Origin: Akkermansia muciniphila
GTDB taxonomy: Bacteria > Verrucomicrobiota > Verrucomicrobiia > Limisphaerales > UBA9464
Length of the DNA stretch: 64,000 nucleotides
Direction of reading: 5' to 3'
Assembly (NCBI GenBank): GCA_945861565.1
Contig: CAMAUY010000001.1
Location: forward strand, 1 to 64,000
Positions within the stretch are counted from its first letter, which is position 1. The number at the start of each line of letters is the position of its first letter. Positions 12,538 through 21,087 of the stretch are shown here, one piece after another. The position numbers and the translations under genes were made by a program. Below the pieces are notes generated by a model, which saw only the letters and a program-made list of their open reading frames with translations, was not told the origin of the DNA and ran no database searches.

Positions 12538-13797
12538 TCAAAACTGGAGGTAGATCGCCTTCAAGTACCATGCTTCCGGGAACGTGGCGGGGTGATCGGG
12601 GGCGTGGCGGGTGGTGCACAACTCGCTGTGGTGTCGACCCGATCGGCGTGCGGTGTCGCGCACGACGCCGAAGAATTCCCCTTCCGTGACATGGGCCGAA
12701 CAAGAGGCTGACAGGAGAATGCCTCCGGGCCGAAGCCGTCCGATGCCGCTGGCGGCGAGTTTGCCATACGCTTGGATGGCTCCGGCGCGCTCGTGTTCGC
12801 GACGGGCGAGCGAGGGGGGGTCGAGGATGATAAGATCGAACTCACGCCGTGGACCCGTCGCGAGCCAATCGAAACAATCAGCCTGCACCGACTCATGGCG
12901 GCAGCCGGTGATCCGGGCTTGATCCAGGTTGAGCGCCACGTTTCGTTTCGCGCTGGCGAGGGCGTGTGCGGAAATGTCGAGATCTGTCAGGGAGCGGGCG
13001 CCGCCCCGGGCAGCATACAGTGAAAACCCACCTGAAAAACTGAACGCGTTGAGCACGTCGCGACCCGCCGCATACGTTTCCACTCGGCGGCGGTTTTCCC
13101 GTTGGTCGAGGTAAAACCCCGTCTTTTGACCCCGCACGACCTCCGCTTCGAATCGCAAACCGGATTCCTGGAAAACAATCACCGGATCCGCTGTTGCCGT
13201 GACAAAGCGAACGTCTCCCGCTTCCGGGCCAGGCGCAACCGCCTCGAAGCCGTCTCCGAGACCGGCCTTGGCAGCTGCCTCTTGGATATTGCGGCTGAGG
13301 CGGAGGATCAGGCGGTCGGGGTGAAATTCTGCGAACAGCATCGGAACCAGTTCCGTCAGGCGCGACAGCCAGACGGTGGAATATAATTTCAGCACGACGG
13401 TCTGTTCATACCGATCCAGGACGAGTCCGGGCCAGCCGTCGTTCTCGCCATGGATCCAACGGTAGCCCGTGGTTTGATCATCAAAAAGTCCGCGCCGCCG
13501 TTCCCGGGACGCACGCAGACGTTCCCTCCACCAATCGGGTGTCACGGTCACCGGTTTCCCGACATGCAGAATTCGCAGTCCGATGGCCGAATCCGGATCG
13601 TATAGACCGAGCGCAAGAAACCGATCCTGGCGATCATAGATCACGGCCAGCTCGCCTGCGTTACCGGCCCGGTTTTGTTCCTTGATGCGGTCGGTATAGA
13701 CCCATGGGTGGCCTTGGCGGACGGCGGATTCCGCAGCGGGTCCAAGCCGCATCCTGAGGCGGGGAGGTGGTTGGGAGGCAGGAGCTACCGCGTTCAC
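12538..13797 (-). CDS. rlmI: Class I SAM-dependent rRNA methyltransferase with PUA domain (RlmI-like)
   Basis: [26 protein letters not shown] (PUA); [62 protein letters not shown]. Confidence 0.9.
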
Positions 13798-15257
13798 GCG
13801 AGGACGCTCTGGACCACGCGGCCGTGAACGTCGGTCAGGCGGTAGCGGCGTCCTTGGTATTTGAAGGTCAATCGTTCGTGATCAATGCCGAGTTGATGGA
13901 GCAGCGTTGCCTGCAAGTCATGCACGTGGACGGGGTTTTCTGCCACGCTGTAACCAAATTCATCGGTCGATCCGTAACTGGTTCCCCCCTTGATGCCGGC
14001 GCCTGCCATCCAAATGGAGAAACAGCGCGGGTGATGATCTCGCCCGTAGTCGGTCGGCGTCAGCCTGCCTTGTGAATAACTGGTGCGGCCGAATTCGCCG
14101 CCCCAGACGACGAGTGTTTCGTCGAGCAGACCCCGTTGTTTCAAATCGGTTACGAGGGCATAGGCCGCCTGGTCGATGTCCTTGCATTGTCGCCGGATGC
14201 CGCTCGGGAGACCCCCGTGGTGGTCCCAGCCCGGGTGGTAGAGTTGGATGAAGCGGACGTTGCGTTCGGCGAGGCGGCGAGCGAGGAGGCAGTTGGCGGC
14301 GAAGGTGCCCGGATCGCGCGACTCGGGTCCGTAGAGTTCATAGACGCTGGCAGGCTCGCCGGAGACATCCATCGCCTCGGGGACGGAGGTTTGCATTCGG
14401 TAGGCCATTTCGTATTGGGCCACTCGCGCATTGATTTCTGGATCGCCGAGATCTTCGAACTGCAGTGAGCTCAATTCCGCGAGACGGTCGAGCATCTTGC
14501 GGCGACTGCCGGCGGATTCGCCGTCTGGATTCTGCAGATAGAGAACCGGTTCGCGTCCGCTGCGGAACTGAACGCCCTGATGAATGCTGGGCAGGAATCC
14601 GTTCCCCCACAGGCGGGAGTAGAGGGGTTGATCGATCCGTTGTTTCGAGATGAGCACGACAAAGCAGGGCAGATTCTGATTTGCGCTCCCGAGACCGTAA
14701 CTCAGCCAGGCGCCGAAGGACGGTCGCCCGGCGATTTGATGGCCGGTTTGAAAGAAGGTGATGGCTGGGTCGTGGTTAATGGCCTCGGTGTGGAGGGATT
14801 TTACGATGCAGAGGTCGTCCGCCATCTTCGCTGTCCACGGCAACAGTTCGCTGATCCATCCACCGCTTTGGCCGTGTTGTGCGAACTTGAAAATGGAACC
14901 GGCCATCGGGAGCGTGGCTTGGTTGGCCGACATCCCGGTGAGCCGTTGGCCCCTGCGAACGCTCGCCGGGAGGTCTTCACCGGTGCGACGGACCAGCTCC
15001 GGCTTTGGGTCGAAGAGATCGAGCTGTGACGGACCGCCGCTCATGAAGAGATAGATAATCCGTTTCGCTTTGGGCGCGAAATGGGTGGCGTCGAGGACAC
15101 CGCGAAATGGGTCCGGTAGGGTGGAACCCGCTGACTCCTTGGCGGTGGCGGAAAGTGGATTGAGCAACGTGCCCAACGCTGCTCCGCCGAGGCCCAGGCC
15201 GAACCGGCCGAAGAAGTCGCGGCGGTTCATTTCAAAATTCACATGGGAGCAGTTCAT
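13794..15257 (-). CDS. DUF1501 domain-containing protein (Tat-type N-terminus)
   Basis: [23 protein letters not shown] near the N-terminus; [51 protein letters not shown]. Confidence 0.93.
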
Positions 15258-19338: not shown

Positions 19339-20772
19339 TCAAGCGGTGGCACCGGAGTCGGCCTGAGCGGCCATTCGTTTCGCCTTCCGATCCCAATACC
19401 ACGCAACGATAACCGTAATCTCGTAGAGGATCTCGAGCGGCAGGAACAAGATTACCATGTTGATCGGGTTGCCGTCCGGGGTGATGAACCCGGCGATGAC
19501 CAACCCGATGACCACCCAGTACATTCGGAACGACGAAAGTTTGGCGGCGTCCAGGATGCCGATCTTGACCAGGGTGAGGAGCACGAGCGGCAGCTGGAAG
19601 GCGACGCCCATACCCACCATAAACCAGAGTACGAACGAGATATACTGCTCGGCTTGCCATTGGTCGGAACCGAAGCCCAGCCAATTCGAGAAACTGACCG
19701 TTGTACTGAGGCAGATAATGAGGAAAACGAGGTAGCAAAGGGTTACCCCGAGCAAAAACAGAAACGAAGCCCAACCGGCGACTTTGTAGAGAAACTTCTT
19801 CTCAGGGACGTGGAGGGCTGGAAGTACGAACTGGCCGATAAAGAGGAGGAGGAACGGAGCCGCCACCGTAAGTCCACCGTAGAGCGCGATCTGCATCACG
19901 ATGTTGAAGGCGCTGATGGGGCCGAAGTTCTTCAAGTCAACCGTCGATTGACGGGTGGCGGAGACGGGTGGATTTGTCTCCAACTGAAAAGCCGCGACCC
20001 AATTGGTGCCGATCTGCACCGGGGTAAGCCTGTACACGGAGCTCACATTTGTTGGGACTCCCGGCAATGAACTACCGAGGGTGGCTTCCCGGCCGATCAC
20101 ATTGGTGCCTACCAGATACGTGATCGAATGATTGGATGTGATCCGTTTGTTCATGGCCTGCTCAAGCGGCCATTTCAGAAAACCCGTGATATAATTGGCA
20201 CCGCTCAGGCAGAGAATGAAGGAGACCGCGTAGGCTACCGCACACTTGATGAAGGTCCAGCGAAGGTCCTCGAGGTGTTCGATAAATGTTTTGACGGGTC
20301 CGCCACCCTCGTCTTCCGCGATAGGTTCCAAGTCGGATTCAGGAGTGTGATGCCACGAAGATTTTGAGTGAGGCGAAGAATACGGCTGCATGGCCGATTC
20401 GTGCCCTGACTCGTGCCCTGACTCGTGCCCCGACTCGTGCCCCGACTCGTGCCCTGACCCGTGCCCCGACTCGTGCCCCGACTCGTGCCCTGACCCGTGC
20501 CCCGACTCGTGCCCCGACTCGTGCCCTGACCCGTGCCCTGACCCGTGCCCTGACTCGTGCCCTGACTCGTGCCCTGACTCGTGCCCTGGCTCGTGCCCTG
20601 GCTCGTGCCCTGGCTCGTGCCCTGGCTCGGGGCTTGGCTCGGGCGTCGGCTCGGGCGTCGGCTCGGGCCCTGGCTCGGGGCTTGGCTTGTGAGCAGGGTC
20701 CGGAGCGCTAGGGGACAAGTCCTTGGGATTTTCGCCCATGAAACGGGGAATCAGTCGGCCGAAAAACGGCAA
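19339..20772 (-). CDS. tatC: Sec-independent protein translocase TatC with His-rich tetrapeptide-repeat N-terminal extension
   Basis: FIEHLEDLRWTFIKCAVAYAVSFIL; FVLWFMVGMGVAFQLPLVLLTLVKIGIL; VIGLVIAGFITPDGNPINMVILFLPLEILYEITV. Start may be MGENPKDLS at 20739. Confidence 0.93.
   Translation of the reverse strand: MPFFGRLIPRFMGENPKDLSPSAPDPAHKPSPEPGPEPTPEPTPEPSPEPGHEPGHEPGHEPGHESGHESGHESGHGSGHGSGHESGHESGHGSGHESGHESGHGSGHESGHESGHESGHESGHESAMQPYSSPHSKSSWHHTPESDLEPIAEDEGGGPVKTFIEHLEDLRWTFIKCAVAYAVSFILCLSGANYITGFLKWPLEQAMNKRITSNHSITYLVGTNVIGREATLGSSLPGVPTNVSSVYRLTPVQIGTNWVAAFQLETNPPVSATRQSTVDLKNFGPISAFNIVMQIALYGGLTVAAPFLLLFIGQFVLPALHVPEKKFLYKVAGWASFLFLLGVTLCYLVFLIICLSTTVSFSNWLGFGSDQWQAEQYISFVLWFMVGMGVAFQLPLVLLTLVKIGILDAAKLSSFRMYWVVIGLVIAGFITPDGNPINMVILFLPLEILYEITVIVAWYWDRKAKRMAAQADSGATA
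20396..20640 (-). repeat. 12-bp tandem repeat (ggcacgagtcag-type) encoding about 19 GH[E/G][S/P] units in TatC
   Basis: Consecutive tcgtgccc[t/c]gac units; coding strand reads GHEPGHEPGHEPGHESGHESGHESGHGS...GHESGHES. Confidence 0.95.
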
Positions 20773-20823
20773 CGGCGGTCATCGACCGCCGTTGCGCCCA
20801 GTTCGGTGGGAAAACGTGTGGAC

Positions 20824-21087
20824 CTATTTGGACTGGGCAATCGAGTCTGTGGGACGGTGGGGACCTGGGGGCGTGGGAGGATGCGCTTCCTCGTCGAAGG
20901 CCCGTTGCACTTCGTCCTGGACATCGCGGGAGGCCTTCTTGAACTCCTTGATGCCAGTGCCCACGCCCTTCATCAGTTCAGGCACTTTCTTGGCTCCGAA
21001 CAGCACCAAAACGACGATGGCGATCCACATGATCTCGGTGCCACCGATCCCGGCCAGCACCGGCGAGAATTGAGAAATAGTGATCAT
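20824..21087 (-). CDS. tatA: Twin-arginine translocase TatA/TatE family subunit
   Basis: [37 protein letters not shown]; directly upstream of tatC. Confidence 0.95.

Follow-up and report, generated by a model that had tools for sequence, protein, structure and literature searches.

The tatC gene and its repeat array

The window, a stretch of 64,000 nucleotides, carries a tatC gene on its minus strand, directly preceded by tatA (Table 1). The assignment to TatC, made in the initial annotation, is borne out by the Pfam family PF00902, which matches over its whole length (profile positions 1-208 of 208) to residues 154-434 with 154 bits against a cut-off of 25.1, by the adjacent tatA, and by the residues that contact the signal peptide. 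The TatC equivalog model TIGR00945 scores 112.2 bits, below its curated cut-off of 132.7, and the match begins at model position 44, past the loop between helices 1 and 2. This loop is long in the window TatC (20020-19950 on the minus strand, residues about 195-265). Between tatA and tatC there is a strong hairpin (20769-20795, minus strand; GCAACGGCGGTC-GAT-GACCGCCGTTGC, then GTTTTT) that resembles an intrinsic terminator or attenuator; its fold z-score is -2.49 and the stem is also present in one related genome, G002. Near tatC, a minus-strand open reading frame at 13794-15257 has, as judged by eye, a stretch resembling a Tat signal peptide close to its start.

Table 1. Features of the tatA-tatC locus in the window
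Feature	Position	Strand	Remarks
tatC coding sequence	19339..20739	-	466 residues, ATG at 20739; Pfam PF00902, start conserved in three species, tatA spacing
Conserved TatC N-terminus MGENPKDLSPSAPDPAH, residues 1-17	20689..20739	-	Same start in G001 and G002
PEPx repeats of TatC, residues 18-39	20623..20688	-	Codon table
19 GH[E/G][S/P] units of TatC, residues 40-115	20395..20622	-	From the 12-bp array
Non-repeat linker and GGGPVK junction of TatC, residues 116-150	20290..20394	-	Alignment with G002 and short-tailed relatives
TatC core, residues 154-434	19438..20280	-	Pfam match; solved TatC structures match
tatA, directly upstream of tatC	20824..21087	-	PF02416 and TIGR01411 above cut-off

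The 5' part of tatC contains a tandem array that TRF places at 20399-20629, with a period of 12 bp, 19.2 copies, 94% matches and a score of 364. TRF found just two other arrays in the 64-kb window, of 2.7 and 2.9 copies. On the minus strand, the PEPx stretch reads KPSPEPGPEPTPEPTPEPSPEP and is followed by exactly 19 GH[E/G][S/P] units and then by the TatC core, as the initial annotation had described with a count of about 19; residues 116-150 run into the core start GGGPVKTFIEHLEDLRW. The consensus units are GGGCACGAGTCA and GGGCACGAGCCA. The resulting tail is 16% His and 20% acidic, and contains much Gly, Glu, Pro and Ser. Across the 5.9-Mb genome, a degenerate GHEx-GHEx-GH pattern matches at 10 overlapping sites, every one of them inside the tatC array, and the reversed pattern used as a control matches nowhere. 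The array unit is a multiple of three, which rules out phase variation by frameshift.

The other two genomes of the genus also have arrays here. In G002 (contig CAMDJH010000012.1), an array with a 24-bp unit and about 28 tetrapeptide units lies at the same place in tatC, and in G001 a contig end cuts off a run of at least 11 perfect SHEP units. A pattern search with xHE[P/S] found matches only at the tatC locus in each of the three genomes, and the DNA units of the three arrays differ (consensus AGCCATGAGCCA in G001; GGGCACGAACCG and GTGCATGAGCCA in G002). These different arrays at one tatC site argue against an artefact of assembly, a concern raised with the initial annotation, as do the ordered variants of the window array and its junctions to unique flanks that are conserved in G002. 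With the window genome split into 262 contigs and the G001 contig breaking off within its own array, the exact copy numbers may be inaccurate; we nevertheless give almost no credence to the array itself being an artefact. The similarity among units is 90% within the window and 72% between the window and G002, a pattern consistent with slippage and homogenisation within each species.

Arrays are found in other proteins as well. In the same family, a CobW-like GTPase (L069; G014:C341, minus strand) has a long His/Glu/Asp repeat region, (GHEH)n. Arrays with 12-bp units encode (DDDP)n in a ScpB-like protein (L070; G035:C12) and (PAPV)n in a histidine kinase (L071; G005:C73), both proteins being identified by eye.

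Translation and constraint of the tail

The array is almost certainly translated as part of an N-terminal TatC tail. The initial annotation had placed the start upstream of the repeat and had relied on the continuous frame. The placement stands, on the strength of the conserved N-terminus and the spacing to tatA. The argument from the frame does not, since five of the six frames are open across the array and a continuous frame alone is therefore no evidence for the start. The sequence MGENP[KE]DLSP is common to the window genome, G001 and G002. With the upstream start, tatA and tatC are 84-85 bp apart. Other long-tailed lineages mostly have 11-36 bp before the upstream ATG, as do many short-tailed ones. 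Translation could instead begin at Met117, downstream of the array, with the repeat serving as an untranslated leader or the tail being made only in a second form of the protein. Met117 is kept in G002, and visual inspection shows no obvious Shine-Dalgarno sequence at either start. However, a start at Met117 would widen the gap to about 430 bp, and the codon patterns are those of coding sequence. We regard a downstream start as very unlikely.

The tail has a dN/dS of 0.25 between the window and G002, a value made rough by the alignment of repeats. In most other pairs tail values are 0.15-0.48, with 0.77 in one very close pair and one further pair saturated, and values for the cores are mostly lower. 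On the evidence of these ratios, TatC tails are under weak purifying selection. Between species, the consensus units differ at the His and Glu codons by synonymous changes only, at the first codon by nonsynonymous changes only, and at the fourth by changes of both kinds; the units are few and related, so this pattern is suggestive and amounts to no formal test. Single units in G002 swap His for Pro.

Long TatC tails across the order

We extracted 116 TatC sequences, all from the window's order of Verrucomicrobiota, and measured the tail as the residues before the GG..[VI]K junction, starting from the first in-frame Met. Tail length is bimodal among these sequences, at 13-27 residues (with one of 52) or 107-219 residues; because long open frames were deliberately chosen, the proportion of long tails cannot be read as a frequency. 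The initial annotation had considered the window protein unusual on the ground that TatC is normally compact. In this order, by contrast, long, acidic and mostly His-rich tails recur in many genera, and the window is thus one instance of a wider trait. Beyond the order, a comparable long tail was found in none of 20 long-frame TatCs from elsewhere in the phylum, whose upstream parts resemble short tails or non-coding read-through.

In a maximum-likelihood tree of 115 cores, whose bootstrap had not fully settled, the short state changes 11 times and the long, His-rich state 8 times, and the starred branches force seven changes of each. The tree thus forces at least seven gains or losses of long tails within the order. 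The window genus falls within a set of short-tailed relatives, and its sisters (G019 and G022) have tails of 17 residues. Its tail was therefore probably gained independently of the His/Asp/Tyr-rich tails in families f24, f49, f41 and f7. The tails of f24 and f49 (L117-L135), which are non-repetitive, contain a conserved motif of the DPYH[DQ]E type.

The 38 long tails, when pooled, are 7.6% His, 23.6% acidic and 3.4% basic, with a single Cys among 6,358 residues. His makes up 2.6% of short TatC tails and 1.25% of TatC cores; these are raw pooled figures from related sequences. TatA tails contain 2.9% His in genomes with His-rich TatC tails and 3.05% in short-tailed genomes, with the caveat that the His-tailed class is itself defined by His content. 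The TatA values place the enrichment on TatC and show no Tat-wide enrichment in His. The net charge of the His-rich TatC tails ranges from -16 to -66. The long tails of families f11, f12, f15 and f40 are nearly devoid of His.

Possible roles of the tail at the docking face

In E. coli, the n-region of the signal peptide rests where TatC helices 1-3 end on the cytoplasmic side, with the first Arg near E15 and F94 and the second bound to E103 (PMC13323110). Residues H155, F304, L309 and E313 of the window TatC are identical to E. coli H12, F94, L99 and E103; F304 and E313 are placed with an offset of 210 to chain 9dzz_A. Two docking residues differ, D158 for E15 (placed via the HLxx motif) and H310 for Y100. 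HLEDLR or HLEDFR is general in TatC of this order. A few residues separate the end of the tail from helix 1, which by homology would place the tail in the cytoplasm beside the twin-arginine docking site, in agreement with the cytoplasmic location proposed in the initial annotation. We infer that the tail is disordered; an AlphaFold model built with two sequences has a mean pLDDT of 42, a very low confidence, and is uninformative.

The origin of the tail is well supported: on the N-terminus of an otherwise ordinary TatC, in-frame duplication of 12-bp units has extended a linker, which in the nearest relatives has about 17-27 residues, into a tetrapeptide-repeat tail of about 145. For its role, our leading but tentative proposal is a flexible polyanionic histidine antenna tuned by metal or pH, an idea that may well prove wrong. 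The carboxylates of the tail could draw in the basic n-regions of signal peptides or shield them. His and acidic groups that lie close together could hold divalent transition metals weakly or change protonation around neutral pH. Metal or pH would then alter the charge and reach of the tail and tune the docking of signal peptides, and duplication of whole units would change tail length without a frameshift. This proposal is supported by the restriction of the xHE[P/S] array to tatC in three of three genomes, with only synonymous differences between consensus units in the His and Glu codons, and by the His content of the long tails relative to short tails, cores and TatA tails. The repeated changes of the long, His-rich state on the tree, the dN/dS of the tails, their negative charge, and the docking-site residues that correspond to E. 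coli H12, E15, F94 and E103 also support it, as does the association of His/Asp-rich low-complexity regions with Ni/Co-binding proteins (PMC6821194). Against the antenna stand the long tails that are almost free of His, the lower constraint on tails than on cores, and the His content of known metal-binding His regions, about half, compared with 16% in the window tail.

The tail could also act simply as an acidic, flexible spacer for which only length, flexibility and negative charge matter and His is incidental. Such a spacer might steer or screen basic signal peptides, crowd the docking face, or bind a partner protein. In favour of a spacer, every intact long tail, even one without His, is acidic as well as long, and tail lengths fall into two distinct classes. 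However, His enrichment recurs in lineages that are separated on the tree and is absent from TatA tails, and between species the array units differ only synonymously at their His and Glu codons. We consider a spacer possible, if somewhat doubtful. Alternatively, the array might have expanded by slippage in a freely varying linker and have no function of its own. The local homogenisation of units, the arrays of the same kind in linkers of the CobW-like GTPase, the ScpB-like protein and the histidine kinase, and the mostly higher dN/dS of tails than cores are all consistent with tolerated slippage. On the other side, most pairs have a tail dN/dS far below 1, all three species retain the HE[P/S] theme despite turnover of the DNA unit, and non-repetitive His-rich tails persist across families f24, f49, f41 and f7. 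We think it unlikely that the tail is mere tolerated slippage.

The docking face of TatC, the receptor of Tat export, has been resolved at the atomic level in proteins whose N-termini are short. Recurrent tails of an acidic and mostly His-rich kind next to the docking site might give the export of folded proteins a further level of control. In its boldest form, the antenna proposal would have the Tat receptor of this order repeatedly acquiring, where signal peptides dock, a tail that senses metal or pH and tunes folded-protein export to the metal state or pH of the cytoplasm, with repeat number adjusting the response; we hold this bold form to be decidedly unlikely. The many long- and short-tailed sister lineages are natural comparisons for the function of the tail.

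Large periplasmic inserts in TatC are already known, and for long or His-rich N-terminal TatC tails we found no description in the literature searched, which was mostly open-access. The text of a 2013 paper on TatC diversity contains neither "extension" nor "histidine". The TatA of Providencia has an N-terminal extension of eight residues. Among His-rich metal-related tails are counted those of UreE, HypB and SlyD. The window tail is on a translocase and not on a metallochaperone. It recalls Ni/Co-related His-rich regions in combining His with acidic residues and in its position as a tail, but it is far poorer in His, the reported cobalamin-related set being about 53% His (PMC6821194).

The window TatC resembles the TatC proteins of E. 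coli and Aquifex aeolicus (PF00902) in its core, its helix pattern and its tatA neighbor, and their docking-site residues are matched by H155, D158, F304 and E313. It differs in having about 150 residues before the first core motif, compared with about a dozen in E. coli. The TatC proteins of Nitratifractor salsuginis and Myxococcus xanthus have large periplasmic inserts, and the insert is disordered in N. salsuginis (PMC13323110). These proteins likewise combine a TatC core with a large lineage-specific addition. Their additions are in periplasmic loops, whereas that of the window TatC is an N-terminal and, by homology, cytoplasmic tail.
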